A stretch of 64,000 nt of DNA from assembly GCF_006716565.1 (NCBI RefSeq), contig NZ_VFPG01000002.1, positions 806,001 to 870,000 on the forward strand, written 5' to 3'. This document shows positions 13,441 to 57,495 of this stretch, one piece after another; position 1 is the stretch's first letter; every line of letters begins with the position of its first letter. This DNA is from Nocardia bhagyanarayanae (lineage in GTDB: Bacteria; Actinomycetota; Actinomycetes; Mycobacteriales; Mycobacteriaceae). The notes under the pieces are model-generated. The model worked only from the letters and a program-made list of their open reading frames with translations, did not search any database and was not told where the DNA came from. Both the position numbers and the translations under genes were made by a program.

Positions 13441-14640
13441 TCAGGCGCGCACGCCGGGCCGGAACTTCGGCACCCGCAGGCTGACCTTGGTGCCCGCGCC
13501 CGGCGCGGTCTCGACGATCAACCCGTAGTCGTTGCCGAAGGCCGCGCGCAGCCGGTCGTCCACGTTCGCCAGCCCTACGTGCGCGGACTCTCCGGAACCC
13601 GCGGGGCCCGAACCGGTTTCGACCGCGTCCAGCGCGCCGGAGCGCAGCAGGTCGGGGTCCATGCCCGCGCCGTCGTCCTCGACGCTGATCAGGCAGTCGG
13701 TCCCCGCGTCGGTGGCCACGATGGCGATGGTGCCGCCGCCCTGCCTGCCCGCGATGCCGTGCCGCACCGCGTTCTCCACCAGCGGTTGCAGGGCGAGGAA
13801 GGGCAGCACCACGCCGAGCACCTCGGGCGCGATGCGCAGCCGCACCTGCAGCGCGTCGCCGAAGCGGGCCCGTTCCAGCGCGAGGTAGCGCTCGATGTTG
13901 CGCAGTTCGTCGGACAGCACGGTGAATTCCCCCGCGGCTCGGAAGGAGTAGCGGGTGAAGTCGGCGAACTCGAGGATGAGCTCTCTGGCCCGATCGGGAT
14001 CGGTGCGCACGAACGAAGCGATGGTGTTGAGCGCGTTGTAGATGAAGTGGGGGCTGATCTGGGCGCGCAGCGCGCGCACCTCGGCGCGGTCGAGCCGGGC
14101 GCGCGAAGCGTCGAGATCGGCGAGTTCCAGCTGGCCGCAGGCGTACCGGGCCACCTCGGCGAGCGCGCCGAGCAGCCCCGGCCCCGGCTTGCCGTCGGTG
14201 ACCACGCCGAGCGCGCCCGCCGCGCCGCTGTTCTCGATCAGCAACGGCTGCGCCACCAGCGTCCGCGCGCCGTGCTCGCCCTGCCCGGGACCGGCCACCA
14301 GAACCGGTCGCTCGCTCGCGGCCGCCCGTCGCGCGGCGTCGGCGAAGGCCTCGGCGAGATCGGTGTGGGGACCGTCCCAGGCGAGCACCTCTCCGTCGGG
14401 ATCGGCGACGCCGAGGGCGTCCGCGCCGGTCAGCGCGCGCAAATGTGGCGCGGCCTCCCGCGCGGACTGGTCGGTGAGCCCGCGGCGCAGCGGCACGGCC
14501 GCCAGCGAGGCGGTGTGCAGCGCCGAGTGCACCGCACGTTCGGCGGGTGTGGTGACCACCCGCCGCGTGCGCAGCCACACCAACAGCGCGCCGCCCGCCA
14601 CCAGCGTCGCCGCGACGACGGCGACCACGGTCGCGGTCAC
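13441..14640 (-). CDS. LytS-type sensor histidine kinase
   Basis: A 399-residue kinase. One N-terminal membrane segment (about residues 4-23) is followed by a GAF-like region (about 65-150), then the His_kinase (LytS/YehU) block LRAQISPHFIYNALNTIASF with the phosphorylated His near 198, and a C-terminal HATPase domain (PLVENAVRHGIAGRQGGG, then GIG-box-like sequences). Unlike LytS of Bacillus it has only one membrane segment, so it may sense a cytoplasmic ligand through the GAF-like region. It is the partner of the LytTR regulator directly downstream. Confidence 0.92.
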   Translation of the reverse strand: MTATVVAVVAATLVAGGALLVWLRTRRVVTTPAERAVHSALHTASLAAVPLRRGLTDQSAREAAPHLRALTGADALGVADPDGEVLAWDGPHTDLAEAFADAARRAAASERPVLVAGPGQGEHGARTLVAQPLLIENSGAAGALGVVTDGKPGPGLLGALAEVARYACGQLELADLDASRARLDRAEVRALRAQISPHFIYNALNTIASFVRTDPDRARELILEFADFTRYSFRAAGEFTVLSDELRNIERYLALERARFGDALQVRLRIAPEVLGVVLPFLALQPLVENAVRHGIAGRQGGGTIAIVATDAGTDCLISVEDDGAGMDPDLLRSGALDAVETGSGPAGSGESAHVGLANVDDRLRAAFGNDYGLIVETAPGAGTKVSLRVPKFRPGVRA

Positions 14641-49187: not shown

Positions 49188-49305
49188 TACGGCGGCTATA
49201 GCGGTGGGGAAACGCCCGGTCCCATTCCGAACCCGGAAGCTAAGGCCACCTGCGCCGATGGTACTGCACTCGACAGGGTGTGGGAGAGTAGGACACCGCC
49301 GGAAC
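49188..49305 (+). rRNA. rrf: 5S ribosomal RNA
   Basis: About 118 bases: TACGGCGGCTATAGCGGTGG at the 5' end, CCCATTCCGAACCCGGAAGC in the middle and GGTGTGGGAGAGTAGGACAC near the 3' end. GGCGG and CCGCC form the closing helix. Third gene of the operon, about 160 bases after 23S. Confidence 0.96.
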
Positions 49306-49960: not shown

Positions 49961-50692
49961 TCAGGCCATCGTCGGAATCCGCATCGGCGCGGTGACGTTC
50001 CAGACAGCCGGGACATCGCGCATGAGCAGCGTGCAGTCGAGAGTCGCACTGCCGCGCGGGAAACGGGTCTGGTCCTCGAAGAAGGTCGAACGGACAGCGT
50101 GTGTGCGCGCCGGGCTCACCTGCCATGCGTGCGTGTCTAGTTCGAGGCCGTCGAGGCGCGTGTCATCACGGCTGGCGGAGAAACCGGTGCGGCCCCGCTG
50201 GAAGAAATCCGAAGCCGCGGCCAGATCGGGGAACATCGCGCTGCCCTCGAACTCGTCGACCGTGCGTACGTCGACACTGACCTTGGTCGAACTGTCCCTG
50301 CTCGTGTAGGCGACGTGCAGGTCGTGCCCGCTCTCCTCGACGTCGAATCGGGCGAAGCTGTGGACGCCGGGAAACAGGCGCCCGCCGAGCAGCACGTTCA
50401 GTGGTGAGCCGCTGTCTCTGCGCGGAATGTAGACGCCGCTCTCGACCCCATCCGGACCGTCCCACTCGACAGCTATTCGATGCGCCGCGTTCTCGCTGCG
50501 CACACCGACCACGCTGGGCAGACCGACCGGACGTACTCGGCCGAGCCGGATGAGACAGATTCCCGCCACCGCCCAGTCGCCGACCAGATGTGGTCGCAGT
50601 GGCGCCGGTAGCAGAGCCGCCGCAACGTCGGGTTCGACGCGGTAATTGACCAGCAGACGTCTCTCGATGACGCTCGAGATCTGAGGCATCAT
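49961..50692 (-). CDS. DUF2071 (acetoacetate decarboxylase-fold) protein
   Basis: A 243-residue protein from the first of two tandem ATGs at 50692/50689, with GAGAGAGGA upstream. The sequence IERRLLVNYRVEPDVAAALL, VAGICLIRLGRVRPVGLPSV and GVYIPRRDSGSPLNVLLGGRL is typical of DUF2071. The family is related in fold to acetoacetate decarboxylase but no activity has been assigned. The longer open frame to 50932 is not supported. Divergent from the hydrolase gene. Confidence 0.85.
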   Translation of the reverse strand: MMPQISSVIERRLLVNYRVEPDVAAALLPAPLRPHLVGDWAVAGICLIRLGRVRPVGLPSVVGVRSENAAHRIAVEWDGPDGVESGVYIPRRDSGSPLNVLLGGRLFPGVHSFARFDVEESGHDLHVAYTSRDSSTKVSVDVRTVDEFEGSAMFPDLAAASDFFQRGRTGFSASRDDTRLDGLELDTHAWQVSPARTHAVRSTFFEDQTRFPRGSATLDCTLLMRDVPAVWNVTAPMRIPTMA

Positions 50693-50961
50693 GCGACGGG
50701 TCCTCTCTCTCGGAGCCGGCTCCGCCGCTGTTGCGGGCGATACCGATCCCTCCGGTTTCGACGGTACACGGAGCAGTGCAGATCGCTCTTGTGCGTTCGC
50801 GCACAGCCTTTCGAGGAGTTCAGGTCTGCAGACGATGGCGAGCCGGGGTGCGTTGTCGAAGGTGGCAGCTGGGCAAGCACTTGCCGAAGCATTGCGGGGT
50901 CGGCTTCGAGCTCGATGCGGACCACGTGGCAACCCTTCGCATCCGTCGATACCGTGAAGAG

Positions 50962-52128
50962 ATGTCGCCGTTGGACGATCGGCACCCGTCCACCGTCACC
51001 GACTGGGATGATGCGCGACGTAAGGCTCGGCTCCGGGAGACCCGCCTCGGGCACCGGTGGACGACGTTGCGCCGCACCAGGTTGACACTGCTGCGGGTCG
51101 CCGCACTGCTGATACTCGTACTCACCGTGTTCACTCAGTACTGGGTGCACGATGTCGCCCCCGAGCGCGCCAGACTCGCCTTGACCGAGCCCGCGCTGCT
51201 CCCGGTCGCGACTCCCGCGCGGGAGGAGAACTGGGACACCGCGGTCGTCGATCTGGTCGGACTGGGCGGTCTGAACGCCTCCGACACGGCGGCGTCGCTA
51301 CCCGCCCTGCGGCGGATGGGCGTGGTTTGGGCCATCAAATACGACAATCAGGGCATCGACAGCAAGGTGATCGCCGATCTCGTCGTCCGCGCCGCGCAGA
51401 TGTCGGGCGTGCGGAACATCGTGCTCGTCGGGCACAGCATGGGCGGGGTCATCGCGCTGGAGGTCGGGCAGCACATCCATCTGGACAGCGATCGGCGGCT
51501 TGCCGGCGTGCTGTTGGACTGCACCCCAGTCGATCTGAACGCGGTGCGCCCGGAGAGTCGCGGACGCGGCGAGGACATGCTGCGCTGGATGGGCTGGTTG
51601 CCTGGGGCGCGCGAGAGCCGGGCCCTGCGGCTCGCCGTGGAGACCTACGCGCGCCGGGAGCGGTTCGTCGATCGCACCGCCGACCCGGTGCCGACGATTC
51701 GATTCGGCGAACTGGGAGACGTGCTGGCCGAGGTCGCGACCGAGAAGGTCTTGTCGCGCAACGCCGCGAGCAACGGGCTCATCGAATCGCAGTTCCTCGC
51801 CATCGTCGGCGGCGGCGCGATCGACAATCTCCGCGCGCTGTCCCGTCCGGTCGACGGCAAACCACGCCCGGCCATCGTCTTCATCCGGCCACGCGACGCC
51901 GAGCGCGACCGAGTCGTCGATGTCGAGTACTCGCACCAGGTCCTCATCGAGCGCGCGGGCGGAGTGGACGGCAGCCTACTGGTGGTGATGCCACGCAACA
52001 CCGGCCACGCCAACCCGCGGCAGGCACCGCACGAGTACAACAAGGTCATCGACCAGCAGGTCATGCCGTTCCTGCAGCGGTATCTGGATCAGGTACGCGG
52101 GGTGCGCAGCGCCGCCGCGCCCGGCTGA
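50962..52128 (+). CDS. Membrane-anchored alpha/beta hydrolase
   Basis: A 388-residue protein from the ATG at 50962 (GAAGAG just before). Residues about 41-60 form one membrane segment, and the following domain is an alpha/beta hydrolase with the nucleophile elbow LVGHSMGGVIAL (Ser about 159), Asp in LLDCTPVD, and a late His (NTGHAN). This places the catalytic domain outside the membrane. Substrate unknown. The stop is immediately followed by the 24-bp repeat array. Confidence 0.87.
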   Translation: MSPLDDRHPSTVTDWDDARRKARLRETRLGHRWTTLRRTRLTLLRVAALLILVLTVFTQYWVHDVAPERARLALTEPALLPVATPAREENWDTAVVDLVGLGGLNASDTAASLPALRRMGVVWAIKYDNQGIDSKVIADLVVRAAQMSGVRNIVLVGHSMGGVIALEVGQHIHLDSDRRLAGVLLDCTPVDLNAVRPESRGRGEDMLRWMGWLPGARESRALRLAVETYARRERFVDRTADPVPTIRFGELGDVLAEVATEKVLSRNAASNGLIESQFLAIVGGGAIDNLRALSRPVDGKPRPAIVFIRPRDAERDRVVDVEYSHQVLIERAGGVDGSLLVVMPRNTGHANPRQAPHEYNKVIDQQVMPFLQRYLDQVRGVRSAAAPG

Positions 52129-53300
52129 CACAGTGCCCGGCTGACACAGCGCTGGGGTGTCTGCGTGACCACAGCGTTGCGGTGCCTGCCGACACAGCGC
52201 TCCGGCGCCCTTCTGGCGGAGCGTCGCCCGGTTGAGCGCAGTGCTGGGCACCGGACTGATACAGAGCCGCGGTGCCCGGCCAGCACCGCGTCGCCCGGTT
52301 GAGCGCAGCGCCGGGGCGCGCGACTGGCACAGCGCAGTGGTGCCGGGCTGATCCCGCGCTGCGGTGCCGACTGATAAAGCACATCGGCGCCCCGCTGGCA
52401 CAGCGCTACGGGGCCCGACTGATACAGCACATCGGTGTCCGGCTGTCAGCGCTGTGGCTCCCGGTTGATACAGCGCTGTGGCTCCCGGTTGATACAGCGC
52501 TGTGGTACCCGACTGGCGCAGCGCAGTGGTGCCTGGCTGACCACAGCGTTGCGGGGCCTGGCTGGTACTGCACGTCGGTGCTCGGTTGGCACACCGCCCG
52601 GCTCAACGCAGTGCCGAGGCACAGCGCTGCGGCACATGGCGGACACTGTGCTCCGGCGTACGCCGGACCGCAGTGCTGCGGTGCCCGGCTGGCGCACCGC
52701 GGTGGTGCCCAGTTGATACTGCACAGCGGTGCCCGGCTGACGCGCACAGGTGCCCGGCTGATACAGCGCCGCCCGGCTGACCGCAGTGCTGGGCGCCCGA
52801 GTGATACAGAGCTGCGGTGCCCGGCTGGCACCGTGCAGCCCGGTTGAGCGCGGCGGCGGGGCGCGCGGCTGGCATAGCGCAGCGGCGCCGGGCTGATGCC
52901 GCGCTGGGGTGCCCGGCTGACACAGCGTTGCGGTGCCTGACCGACTGGAGGACAGCGGTGCCCGGCTGTCACCGCGCCGCCCGGTTGAGCGCAGCGCTGG
53001 GGCGCGCGACTGGCATAGCGCAGTGGCGCCGGGCTGATGCCGCGCTGGGGTGCAGTTGGCACCGCGGCGCCAGTCGAGCGCAGCGCCGAGGTGCCTGGCT
53101 GACACAGCGCTGTGGCTCCGGCCGACACAGCGCCGCCCGGTTCCTTTGCGGCGCCGGGGCGCCCGAATGGCACAGCGCCATGGTGCCCGGCTGATTCAGC
53201 GCCGCGTGGTTGAGCGCGGGGATGCGCCCGAATGGGGCAGCGCCCTGGTGCCCGACTGGTCCAGCACTTCGGCGCCTGCGGGGCGGTGTTGCGGCGACGG
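52129..53300. repeat. Array of about 50 degenerate 24-bp repeats, no gene
   Basis: Units are contiguous, typically 24 bases (some 18-26), beginning GCTG, with GGTGCCCGGCTGA in the middle and ending ACAGC; successive units join as CAGC|GCTG, an 8-bp palindrome, and each good unit can fold as a GCTGT/ACAGC hairpin. Two perfect neighbouring copies are near 52450-52500. Higher-order copies exist: 52286-52368, 52831-52913 and 52972-53054 (83 bases each), and 52225-52368 matches 52771-52913. Because 24 is divisible by 3, long open frames with 8-residue periodicity appear on both strands; I regard them as by-products. No ribosome-binding sites or known domains are present. Confidence 0.85.
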
Positions 53301-53439
53301 GTTGGCATCGCGATGCGGCGCGCACTGACATGGTGCAGGGGAAAAGAGGACGCGGCGCATGGCGGCGGGTTGGCACCGGTTCGAATCAGGCTGTCGTTAA
53401 CCGTGTTCGGGTCTGTTTCGTCCTGCTTGACTACCGAGC

Positions 53440-54531
53440 ATGTTTCGACCGAGTACGTTCCTGCCCGGCCTCCGTGGCCGCACCACCGCCGCTTTGCTTG
53501 CCGTGGCGACCGCTGCGACCCTCGGGCTGACCGGGTGCGCGAAGGACGACACGCCGGTCGTCGACACCGCCAATACGCCGCTGCCGACCGAGGTGCCCGC
53601 GGGCACCAAACTGATCGTCGCCGATCAGCAGGAGCGCCTGCAGAGCGTGCTGCGCTTCTCCGGTGAGCTGGACAAGCTGCCGTTCCAGGTGGAGTTCGCC
53701 AACTTCGTCGGCGGACCGGCCATCCTGGAGGCGTTCCGCGCGGGTGCGGCCGATGTGGCGCCGGTCGGTGACGTGCCGCCTATCCACGCGCTGGCCGCGG
53801 GGCAGGACGTGCCGATCGTCGGTGCGCAGCAAACCAGTCCGGCCGCACTGAAATTGGCGGTCGCCCCCGGCCGCACGGCGACGACGCTGGCCGACTTGAA
53901 GGGCAAGAAGATCGCCTACGCCGAGGGCACGGCGCAGCAGGCCGCGGTGCTGCGCGCGCTGGACAAGGCGGGGCTGAAGACCGGCGACGTGCAGCTGGTC
54001 CGGTTGCAGCTGGCCGAGTTTCTCGACGCGGTGCGCACCGGCCAAGTCGACATCGCCCCGCTGATCGAGCCGAATGTGACCCGGCTGCTGCGCACGCCCG
54101 GCACCTCGGTGATCCCGGATTCCGAGACCGCGGGCATCTACGGTGGCCTGGCCTACCTGTACGCGCGGCGCGCGGTGACGCAGGATCCGGCCAAGTCGGC
54201 GGCGGTCGGCGCGCTGGTGAGTGCTTACGTCCGGGCCTACCAGTGGGTGAACACCCATCGCGAGGAGTGGGCGCAGAAGTACTACGTGGACAACCAGAAG
54301 GTCAGCCCCGAGGACGCGCGGCGCATCGTGGAATCGCTGGGCACCTACACCTTCCCGCACCTGGATCAGCGGCTCGTCGACCGGCAGCAATCCACCATCG
54401 ACGCCATCGCCGCCGCGGGCGAACTGCCCAAGAAAGTCAGCGCCGCCAACGGTTTCGATCTGCGCTACGACGCCCTCGTGACGCGCGCGGTCGCCGAATC
54501 CGGCGCTTCACACGAACCGAAGGAGCGGTGA
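53440..54531 (+). CDS. ABC transporter substrate-binding lipoprotein (SsuA/TauA-like)
   Basis: A 363-residue lipoprotein with signal peptide and lipobox (TAATLGLTGC, Cys about 33). The binding-protein body has the NMT1/SsuA pattern: FVGGPAILEAFRAGAADVAPVGD, KGKKIAYAEGTAQQAAVLRA and a C-terminal YYVDNQKVSPEDARRIVESL. It should capture an aliphatic sulfonate or similar anion outside the cell and deliver it to the permease. First gene of a four-gene operon; the next ATG overlaps its stop by one base (TGATG). Confidence 0.9.
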   Translation: MFRPSTFLPGLRGRTTAALLAVATAATLGLTGCAKDDTPVVDTANTPLPTEVPAGTKLIVADQQERLQSVLRFSGELDKLPFQVEFANFVGGPAILEAFRAGAADVAPVGDVPPIHALAAGQDVPIVGAQQTSPAALKLAVAPGRTATTLADLKGKKIAYAEGTAQQAAVLRALDKAGLKTGDVQLVRLQLAEFLDAVRTGQVDIAPLIEPNVTRLLRTPGTSVIPDSETAGIYGGLAYLYARRAVTQDPAKSAAVGALVSAYVRAYQWVNTHREEWAQKYYVDNQKVSPEDARRIVESLGTYTFPHLDQRLVDRQQSTIDAIAAAGELPKKVSAANGFDLRYDALVTRAVAESGASHEPKER

Positions 54532-55394
54532 TGGCGACACTCGACGCGGGCGTACTCGGCCGATTCGGCAGGGCGGCGACAGCGCCCGTCGAACTTCAGG
54601 CGCGCGGCAAGGTGTCGCGGCGCAGGCTCGGACCCGGCAAGCCGATTCCGTTCGGCATCGCCCTCGGACCGACGCTGCTGGTGGCGGCGTGGGTGATCGG
54701 ATCCGCCACGGGGACGCTGGATCCGGAGACGCTGCCCGCGCCGTGGACGGTGGCGCAGACGGCAGGGGATCTGATCGCCGACGGACGCTTACAGTCCAAC
54801 CTGCTGACCTCGGTGCAGCGCGCCGGTCTCGGTTTGGGTCTCGGCGTCGCCATCGGTGTGGTGCTCGCGCTGGCCGCCGGGCTCAGCCGCGTCGGCGAAG
54901 CGTTGCTGGACGGCCCGATTCAGATCAAGCGCGCGATTCCGACGCTGGCGCTGATCCCGCTGTTCATCGTGTGGTTCGGCATCGGCGAGGAGATGAAGCT
55001 CATCGTCATCACCACCAGTGTGCTGGTGCCGGTGTACATCAACACGCACGCCCACCTGCGCAGCGTGGACGCCCGCTACGTGGAACTCGCCGAGACCGTT
55101 CAGCTTTCGCGCTGGGGGTTCATCCGCCGCATCGCTCTGCCCGGCTCGCTGCCCGGCTTCTTCATCGGCCTTCGTCTCGCGGTCACCATCTCGTGGCTGG
55201 CGCTGGTCGTGGTCGAACAGGTCAACGCCACCAGCGGCATCGGCTATCTCATGACGCAGGCGCGCACCTACGGCCAGATCGACGTCATCGTGGTCGGTCT
55301 GGTGATCTACGGCCTGCTCGGGTTGTTCGGCGACATCGCCGTGCGCGCACTGGAAAGGAGGACGCTGGCATGGCGTCAGACACTCGCGGACTGA
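54531..55394 (+). CDS. ABC transporter permease (SsuC-like)
   Basis: A 287-residue permease with six membrane segments and the EAA-type cytoplasmic loop (YVELAETVQLSRWGFIRRIALPG) that contacts the ATPase. GLALGLGVAIGVVLALAAG-like and ALIPLFIVWFGIGEEMK segments are those of the SsuC/TauC/NrtB family. AGGAG lies just upstream of the ATG. The downstream ATPase gene overlaps its end by 25 bases. Confidence 0.92.
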   Translation: MATLDAGVLGRFGRAATAPVELQARGKVSRRRLGPGKPIPFGIALGPTLLVAAWVIGSATGTLDPETLPAPWTVAQTAGDLIADGRLQSNLLTSVQRAGLGLGLGVAIGVVLALAAGLSRVGEALLDGPIQIKRAIPTLALIPLFIVWFGIGEEMKLIVITTSVLVPVYINTHAHLRSVDARYVELAETVQLSRWGFIRRIALPGSLPGFFIGLRLAVTISWLALVVVEQVNATSGIGYLMTQARTYGQIDVIVVGLVIYGLLGLFGDIAVRALERRTLAWRQTLAD

Positions 55395-56152
55395 ACGTGG
55401 TCCGCGCCCGAGACCTCAGCCGCGGCTTCGGCGACCGCGTGGTGTTGCGCGGCATCGACCTCGACATCGCACGCGGTGAATTCGTCGCGCTGCTCGGCCG
55501 CAGCGGCTCGGGCAAGAGCACCCTGCTGCGCGCGCTGGCCGAATTGGACGACGACGTACCGGGTTCCGGCGATCTCGCGGTGCCCTCGGAACGCGCCGTG
55601 GTATTCCAGGATTCGCGTCTGCTGCCGTGGGTGCGGGTGCTCGACAACGTGACGCTGGGCCTCAGCGGTGCGGGATCGGCGGATCGTGGCCGCGCCGCGC
55701 TCGCCGAGGTCGGCCTCGCCGGTCGTGAGAAGGCCTGGCCCAAGGAGCTTTCCGGCGGCGAGCAGCAGCGCGTGGCACTGGCCCGCTCGCTGGTGCGCGA
55801 ACCCGAGCTGCTGCTGGCCGACGAACCGTTCGGCGCGCTGGACGCGCTGACCCGGATCCGGATGCACGCGCTGCTGCAGGAGCTGTGCGCGAAGCACAAG
55901 CCCGCGGTACTGCTGGTCACCCACGATGTCGACGAGGCCGTGCTGCTCGCCGATCGCGTGCTCGTTCTCGACGAGGGCCGCATCGCCATCGATCTGCGCA
56001 TCGACCTGGAACGCCCGCGCCGCCACAGCGATCCGGAGTTCATCGCGGCGCGCGAGCGGCTGCTTGCCGGTCTCGGCGTCGATCCCCTTGCCAGCGCGGC
56101 CGGTGACGCGGCCGCCCCCGATTTTCACGAGGAAGAGAAGCAAGCCTCATGA
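55370..56152 (+). CDS. ABC transporter ATPase (SsuB-like)
   Basis: A 260-residue nucleotide-binding subunit. Walker A GRSGSGKST (residues about 43-51), Q-loop VVFQDSRLLPWVRVLDNV, signature LSGGEQQRVALARSLV, Walker B LLLADEPFGALDALTR and switch His in VTHDVDEAV. Short spacing and the DSRLLPW Q-loop are typical of sulfonate/nitrate/taurine importers. AAAGGAGGA precedes the ATG inside the permease gene; its stop overlaps the next start (ATGA). Confidence 0.94.
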   Translation: MASDTRGLNVVRARDLSRGFGDRVVLRGIDLDIARGEFVALLGRSGSGKSTLLRALAELDDDVPGSGDLAVPSERAVVFQDSRLLPWVRVLDNVTLGLSGAGSADRGRAALAEVGLAGREKAWPKELSGGEQQRVALARSLVREPELLLADEPFGALDALTRIRMHALLQELCAKHKPAVLLVTHDVDEAVLLADRVLVLDEGRIAIDLRIDLERPRRHSDPEFIAARERLLAGLGVDPLASAAGDAAAPDFHEEEKQAS

Positions 56153-57495
56153 CCGAGCGCCAGCTGAGCCTGAACGCGTTCATCTACCCGTCCGGCCACC
56201 ACGAGGCGGCCTGGCGCCACCCGCAGAGCCGCCCCGACCGGATCTACGACGTCACCTACTACCAGGAAATCGGCCGCACCGCCGAGGCCGCGAAACTCGA
56301 CGCGGTGTTCTTCGCCGACGGACCGGCCCTGCGCACCAATGTCGCGCACAACGCGGCGCCCGGCTTGGAGCCGATCACGCTGCTGACCGCGATCGCCGCG
56401 GCCACAACCCATCTCGGTCTGATCGCCACCGCGTCCACCACGTACTACGAGCCCTACAACCTGGCTAGGCTGTTCTCCAGCCTGGACCACATCTCCGGCG
56501 GACGCGCGGGCTGGAACATCGTCACCACCGGAACCGATCTGGCCGCGGCCAACTTCGGCCTCGACCGGCATCCCGACCACGCGGAAAGATACGCCCGCGC
56601 ACGGGAATTCGTCGACGCCGTGGTGGCGCTGTGGGACAGCTGGGAGGACGACGCGATCCTGCTCGACCAGGCCGCCGGCCGCTACGCCGATCCGGACAAG
56701 ATCCACCGCATCGACTTCGAGGGCGAATACCTCAAGGTGCGTGGACCGTTCAACGCGGCGCGTACGCCACAGGGCTACCCGGTGCTGGTGCAGGCGGGCG
56801 CGTCCAACGAGGGCAGGTCCTTCGCCGGCCGCTACGCCGAAGCCATCTTCACCGCGCACCAGCGGCTGACCGACGCCCAAGCCTTCTACGCCGACATCAA
56901 GGCCAAGGCGCGGGAATTCGGCCGCGACCCCGAGCAGGTGAAGATCCTGCCCGGCATCAGCCCGTTCATCGGCGACACCGAGGCCGACGCCAAGCGGCTG
57001 GAGCGCGAATTCAACGAGCTGACCGTGCCGGAATACGGTCTGGCGCAACTGGAGAGCATCGCGGGCAAGAGCCTGCGGCACCTGGCGCTGGACGAGCTGG
57101 TCCCGGTCGAGGAGTTCGACGGCGCGGGCGATGTCACCGACAACGCGCGCTCACGGCTCCAGGTGGTCGCGGGCATCGTGCGGCGGGACCGCCCGACACT
57201 GCGCGGGTTGCTGCACAGGTTGGCGGGAGCGCGCGGGCATCGAGTCTTCGCCGGCACACCGGAGCAGGTCGCCGACACTATCGAAGAGTGGTTCCGTAAC
57301 GGCGCCGCAGACGGTTTCAATGTGATGCCGCCCTACTACCCGGGCGGGCTCGAGGTCTTCACCTCGACTGTGGTGCCGATCTTGCAGGAGCGCGGACTGT
57401 TTCGCACCGAGTACACCGGAACCACGCTGCGGGACCACTTCGGTCTGGCACGGCCGGAGAGCCGGTTCGCTCGTCGTCCGGCACTCGCCCGGTGA
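56149..57495 (+). CDS. LLM-class flavin monooxygenase (NtaA/SnaA/DszA family)
   Basis: A 448-residue FMNH2-dependent oxygenase of the NtaA/SnaA/DszA/DmoA group: NAFIYPSGHHEAAWRHPQSR, YYQEIGRTAEAAKLDAVFFA, LARLFSSLDHISGGRAGWNI VTT and YPVLVQAGASNEGRSFAGRY. Members cleave C-S or C-N bonds (dimethyl sulfone/sulfoxide-type, EDTA, dibenzothiophene sulfone). Coupling to an SsuABC-like importer argues for desulfonation or related sulfur scavenging. The flavin reductase it needs is not encoded here. Confidence 0.92.
   Translation: MTERQLSLNAFIYPSGHHEAAWRHPQSRPDRIYDVTYYQEIGRTAEAAKLDAVFFADGPALRTNVAHNAAPGLEPITLLTAIAAATTHLGLIATASTTYYEPYNLARLFSSLDHISGGRAGWNIVTTGTDLAAANFGLDRHPDHAERYARAREFVDAVVALWDSWEDDAILLDQAAGRYADPDKIHRIDFEGEYLKVRGPFNAARTPQGYPVLVQAGASNEGRSFAGRYAEAIFTAHQRLTDAQAFYADIKAKAREFGRDPEQVKILPGISPFIGDTEADAKRLEREFNELTVPEYGLAQLESIAGKSLRHLALDELVPVEEFDGAGDVTDNARSRLQVVAGIVRRDRPTLRGLLHRLAGARGHRVFAGTPEQVADTIEEWFRNGAADGFNVMPPYYPGGLEVFTSTVVPILQERGLFRTEYTGTTLRDHFGLARPESRFARRPALAR

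Follow-up and report, generated by a model that had tools for sequence, protein, structure and literature searches.

A degenerate minisatellite in Nocardia bhagyanarayanae that probably arose in place from the stop-codon region of a hydrolase gene

In this study, we analyzed a long array of degenerate tandem repeats in Nocardia bhagyanarayanae, which lies in a 64,000-nucleotide (nt) stretch of contig NZ_VFPG01000002.1 (positions 806,001 to 870,000; hereafter the window, in whose numbering all positions are given) between an alpha/beta-hydrolase gene and a putative ATP-binding cassette (ABC) operon. Our data indicate that the array is very probably a non-coding, degenerate minisatellite, born in place from the segment spanning the hydrolase stop codon, with no function of its own indicated, and that it may exemplify a process that recurs in Nocardia. 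The array is ordinary in kind, apparently a young and quickly wearing tandem repeat and not a novel genetic device; its interest lies in recurrence at gene ends and in fast decay. A preliminary description had offered three readings of the block, namely a protein-binding array, an RNA platform and a decaying minisatellite. Only the last is supported here, now with a concrete origin in the stop-codon region of the hydrolase gene.

Results

An array of worn units begins inside the hydrolase gene

Bacterial minisatellites, or variable number tandem repeats (VNTRs), consist of head-to-tail units of about 10-100 bp without spacers. Here, 53 abutting units of about 24 bp run head to tail from 52107 to 53330, and one very worn extra unit (10 of 24 positions matching) extends to 53352. 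The self-match of the array at lag 24 was 0.45, compared with a mean of 0.304 for 100 dinucleotide-preserving shuffles (z = 11), and a signal at lag 141 was also present. Moreover, 52089-53366 received a wrap-around profile score of 626, compared with 40-87 for six other window segments of equal length. These results bear out the earlier count of about 50 units and the proposed 24-base periodicity. The limits then given, 52129..53300, do enclose repeats, but the true start is at 52107, inside the last codons of the hydrolase gene; periodicity and profile segmentation place about 53 further units, the very worn last one among them, at 52131..53352 on the forward strand. Palindromes had also been described at the unit junctions, but the exact CAGCGCTG occurs only seven times in the block.

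The array consensus is CAGCGCTGCGGCGCCCGGCTGACA. Unit length is 24 bp in 25 of the 53 units and 16-30 bp in the others. Unit divergence, taken pairwise among the array units, averaged 0.331 (1233 pairs), with a nearest-neighbor median of 0.13. Unit comparison revealed one pair of identical neighboring units (52447..52494, forward strand), which is probably the latest duplication because it is the only such pair found. Among 45 near-full units, similarity did not drop with distance (lags 1-14). Longer segments, 258 and 403 bp in length, are repeated within the array at 74% and 72% identity. Changes from the consensus included 87 C-to-T and 26 G-to-A, counts that ignore the shared ancestry of the units.

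The first unit contains the hydrolase stop codon

Unit 1 (52107..52130, forward strand) starts at the final base of a codon and runs through the last six codons of the hydrolase gene, its TGA (52126-52128) and CA; it is the closest of all units to the consensus (22/24). Because the consensus was itself built with unit 1 among the 53, the array-free relatives N. lijiangensis (L052) and N. xishanensis (L053) provide an independent test. When the entire locus (about 8 kb) was searched on both strands in these species, the consensus matched best at the hydrolase stop-codon site (20/24; runners-up 16 and 17). In N. amikacinitolerans (L051), the stop-codon site was again the best match, and about three further worn units are present there. 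Growth in place from the hydrolase tail is well supported because two single-copy sisters match the consensus best at this very site, although distant relatives do not lend the same support.

We propose that a 24-bp segment across the hydrolase stop codon was duplicated in tandem, as the sequence and the relatives suggest. Single-unit and multi-unit duplications, together with point mutations and indels, would then have produced 53 worn units ahead of the ABC operon leader, a step to which the unit divergence and the long-range repeats point. Since the first copy retains the hydrolase stop and the array ends before the operon leader, neither neighbor seems to have been damaged and the array may simply have been tolerated. 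Its likely physical effect is to have pushed the operon about 1.2 kb from the upstream gene.

The array is private among the genomes compared

As in other VNTRs, copy number varies among related species, each represented by one genome in the sets compared: the spacer between the aligned part of the hydrolase gene and the start of the substrate-binding protein (SBP) gene of the operon is 1315 bp here, 138 bp in N. amikacinitolerans and 73 bp in both N. lijiangensis and N. xishanensis. Among 73 loci found through the hydrolase, SBP lies downstream in 29, at 68-265 bp; the remaining 44 gave no downstream SBP match, three of them having SBP upstream and some loci ending early. A second sample was drawn through the SBP region, for which 119 of 150 Nocardia genomes had a match. 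Of the 30 best loci, one is the window itself; among the other 29, the spacer measured 70-138 bp in 27, and two had no hydrolase match. Because the relatives' spacers are short, the search of other Nocardia genomes proposed in the preliminary description leaves the array private among the genomes compared. Consistently, self-match at lag 24 never exceeded 0.43 in 400-nt windows of 29 loci from other genomes (L002-L030), versus 0.515 here.

The window's own genome yielded one DNA match to the array (40 of 199 candidates scored), and a 20-base pattern gave eight scattered matches elsewhere at three mismatches, versus 10 for the reversed control. A family dispersed across the genus was considered and rejected: DNA matches occurred in 28 of 148 genomes, the window's own included, and mostly numbered one or two of 27-57 nt. 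The longest match outside the own genome (92 nt) was in G084, a genome that shows the same hydrolase and SBP identities as the N. amikacinitolerans locus. The best BLAST piece between the N. amikacinitolerans mini-array and the array was 77% identical over 92 nt. A common unit order was not upheld, as six of 23 alternative orders of the four mini-array units outscored the native one, and for this reason we make no claim of common descent for the two arrays.

Other Nocardia gene ends carry arrays of their own

We sampled 1.6 Mb, comprising 0.8 Mb of the window's own genome, 0.4 Mb of G084 and 0.4 Mb of another Nocardia, G041. These contained 141, 82 and 71 spacers of at least 250 bp between predicted genes, of which 8, 3 and 2, respectively, were flagged as repetitive. 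Judged by eye, real non-coding degenerate arrays numbered three in the own genome (L162, L165 and L173), one in G084 (L225) and one in G041 (L243). Their unit sizes are about 25/54, 44, 41, 87 and 33 bp, respectively, and no pair among the six arrays, the present one included, was similar at E <= 1e-3. More importantly, each of the five adjoins at least one predicted gene 3' end. The L173 array contains tail copies of the adjacent LysR-type gene (88% over 97 nt and 79% over 106 nt), and in the L225 array the tail of the adjacent cobB-type gene is matched four times (77-84%, 32-73 nt), once with the stop included.

Near relatives were compared at several of these sites. The flanks of L173 abut in G084, and G083 and G020 have no comparable left flank. 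The L162 site spans 88-156 bp in G084, G138 and G083, versus 617-641 bp. The L225 site measures 77 bp, versus 366, in the window's own genome and 23 bp, versus 660, in G138. At L165, there is overlap with a dispersed family. These species thus seem to acquire such arrays at gene ends independently, and the array here looks like one case of a recurrent Nocardia process, the arrays tested being missing or much shorter in most of the near relatives compared.

Further flagged repeats were set aside: those at L173:17803, L180 and L186 were judged by eye to be coding-like, those at L224, L231 and L245 not to be non-coding arrays, that at L155 coincides with a 1249-codon open frame, and that at L179 has only 2.2 copies. 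The L179 repeat (14433-14602, own genome) is a 77-bp segment at a gene boundary with 88% match between copies, possibly an array at its start. The L243 array (1648-2154) holds 15 copies of its 33-bp unit and is flanked by predicted genes that converge on it; several of the central copies are nearly identical, and those towards either edge are worn. The dispersed family lies at L165 9443-9820 in the own genome, and L173 6705-6801 matches the same family; the L165 region has 64 matches in G084, most of them to this family, and several in G138. Direct as well as inverted copies of a 17-base motif lie at about 9465-9560 of L165, so the family may be a small, mobile-element-like one. A 24-bp period (0.70) was also seen at about 6255 of L154 (own genome, G000:C1:100001-120000), within a 4666-codon open frame that perhaps encodes a long repeat protein.

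Coding potential, RNA structure and regulatory sites

Clustered regularly interspaced short palindromic repeats (CRISPR) are near-identical repeats with unique spacers between them. The units here abut and are on average 33% apart, so a CRISPR array was rejected and, as far as tested, the preliminary description was right that the block is neither a CRISPR array nor a gene. A 300-codon open frame on the reverse strand inside the array (52406..53308) was judged not to be a gene, since it shows phase shifts, no Pfam match and no homologue among 7994 candidates scored. Minus-strand coding was likewise rejected over the array: the frame is lost, 25 of the 53 unit lengths are not multiples of three, and the longest same-phase run is five units.

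Each unit had been expected to fold as a small hairpin, but none of the seven units folded (of 53) did better than its shuffles (z -0.44 to +1.46). Two candidate stems (24 of the 53 units) showed covariation at or below that of shuffles. Their pairing was more frequent than that of slid versions, as expected of stems derived from the consensus. One 401-nt piece of the array folded modestly better than shuffles, both strands alike (z -2.2 and -2.3), and the array had no Rfam match at the gathering threshold. A scan of 51900-53600 revealed no sigma-70 promoter-like or terminator-like site. This result says little, since chance alone would give just 0.1 and 0.4 such sites and, among promoters, the scan covers the sigma-70 type. 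Nothing was found in support of a function for the array.

Discussion

Several observations weigh against the proposal that the array grew from the hydrolase tail as one instance of a recurrent event. In 10 other relatives, the stop-codon site was joint first among consensus matches in two and lower in eight, a weaker match as expected from their distance. Deviations are rare (1-2 in 48-53 units) in consensus columns 3, 10, 11 and 21, whose near-invariance could hint at constraint. At the other gene ends, L162 and L243 yielded no tail seed, and neither did the right flank tested at L165; the L173 site in G138 holds 1.1 kb of non-matching sequence, and the L225 site in G083 still spans 278 bp, versus 676. 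Finally, a unit divergence of 0.331 should not result from neutral decay of an array younger than the splits from the array-free species. Because the units exceed the non-coding differences from the single-copy relatives (0.207-0.230), a step may be missing from our account, be it fast mutation tied to duplication, the loss elsewhere of an older array, or import.

These comparisons rest on alignable non-coding DNA at the locus, with ribosomal RNA (rRNA) and gene starts masked, which differs from N. amikacinitolerans at 0.052 (19/362 sites) and from the two single-copy relatives at 0.230 (40/174) and 0.207 (36/174). The corresponding values at fourfold sites are 0.16-0.17 and 0.18-0.30. At other loci (comparisons with >100 sites; those with <12 sites excluded), the non-coding difference is 0.036-0.077 for G084 and 0.11-0.19 for G138 and G083. 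The three full-length N. amikacinitolerans units compared are 25-33% apart. Because the non-coding DNA that can be aligned over-represents constrained sequence, the true excess of unit divergence may be smaller than the apparent one.

A tentative idea, which we hold to be doubtful, is that Nocardia gene tails recurrently give birth to arrays by mutagenic copying, wherein each round of stop-codon-spanning duplication would also mutate the copies, leaving units a third apart before the neighboring non-coding DNA has changed by about a quarter. If so, gene ends would be a standing source of new non-coding DNA that might later become coding or regulatory.

Alternatively, the array may be old and have disappeared or shrunk in the relatives, or it may have arrived together with its flank from a species outside the sample. 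Either history would accommodate units that are more diverged than the age of the locus suggests, as well as long internal segments that recur at only 74% and 72%. Nevertheless, the short spacers of comparable relatives would then require many clean losses, and the flanks near both array edges differ from N. amikacinitolerans by 5-7%, the usual level; we place this scenario on the unlikely side. An effect on the downstream operon is a fair rival, given a parallel in Mycobacterium tuberculosis, where the length of the rnc-fpg1 repeats has been proposed to tune expression (PMC2734929). The layout described there is similar, with a lineage-specific array reaching from a stop to the next start and a reported link between length and expression, and the operon leader here is intact past the array. 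However, the same gene pair is only 70-138 bp apart in relatives (27 loci), and such tuning of the ABC operon seems quite improbable.

The strong phase over about 50 units and the four nearly invariant columns are what a protein-binding array, such as a nucleoid, replication or segregation site, might display. There is little else in its favor: close relatives manage without the array, the own genome has it at one place only, unit lengths of 16-30 bp would spoil regular spacing, and the gene tail already explains the origin, so that we regard this option as very unlikely. A minus-strand repeat gene or a structured RNA is scarcely credible, for all the long open frames on that strand and the modest extra folding of the 401-nt piece, when homologues and Pfam matches are absent from the searches above and phase changes freely between units. 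The RNA platform suggested earlier is not favored for want of a unit folding signal, covariation beyond shuffles or an Rfam match.

As a minisatellite grown in place from a gene tail, the array can be set beside several known systems. The rnc-fpg1 repeats (ETR-F / VNTR3239) span 279-358 bp in the M. tuberculosis complex, versus 1-54 bp in the other mycobacteria tabulated in PMC2734929, and by that account are likewise tandem repeats running from a gene stop to the next gene start and private to one lineage. In contrast, those 37-bp repeats are exact and start 40 bp past the stop, and their length has been linked to expression, whereas here the units are 33% apart and the first contains the stop. 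The MIRU unit, placed by the same source at 41 chromosomal sites in H37Rv, is set apart by its description as a scattered unit, the present array being at one place in the genome. Borg elements of archaea, as described in PMC9879509, resemble our case in that flanking partial repeats are suspected as seeds, but their repeats are perfect, A-enriched and extrachromosomal, whereas the units here are worn, have a high GC content and lie on a large bacterial contig. The Bacillus repeats of 52 and 20-21 nt reported in PMC8161180 similarly form several sequence-distinct tandem families per genome with unknown function, yet are constant in unit size, which here varies between arrays (24, 25/54, 33, 41, 44 and 87 bp). 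Stop-overlapping repeats are already in print in the form of the Beggiatoaceae TAACTGA repeats, for which PMC4679880 describes one 7-bp unit common to many loci, while each array here has its own unit. The tandem repeats that PMC12817950 describes in promoters of M. tuberculosis Erdman are also actinobacterial intergenic tandem copies of changing number, but are presented there as promoter duplications with phase variation.

Among the openly licensed papers listed, we found no report of such arrays in Nocardia. Here, the birth site, the unit and the array-free sister loci of one bacterial minisatellite are all visible, which makes ideas on how arrays start checkable. If recurrence at gene ends and excess divergence hold genome-wide, gene-tail duplication in Nocardia would come with raised mutation, and the mechanism of minisatellite birth could then be tested by strain comparison.

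Genomic context

The setting given in the preliminary description, between rRNA-linked genes and an ABC operon, was confirmed: the 5S rRNA ends at 49304 and the first operon gene starts at 53440. The part of the alpha/beta-hydrolase gene that is conserved in relatives lies at 50923..52128 on the forward strand (Pfam Abhydrolase_6; 73 related loci), and the longest open reading frame begins at 50731. Just past the array, the 74-nt ABC operon leader (53366..53439, forward strand) is intact and alignable in N. amikacinitolerans, N. lijiangensis and N. xishanensis. It is followed at 53440..57495 (forward strand) by genes assigned through Pfam to an NMT1-like SBP, a permease, an ATPase and a luciferase-like monooxygenase, whose common strand and close spacing suggest an operon.

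Upstream, a DUF2071 gene (49961-50932, reverse strand) lies between an AHSA1-like gene and the hydrolase gene. It had no tblastn match (E 1e-10) in the 73 related loci, several of which reach little upstream. In N. amikacinitolerans, about 3.6 kb of non-aligning sequence occupies its position.
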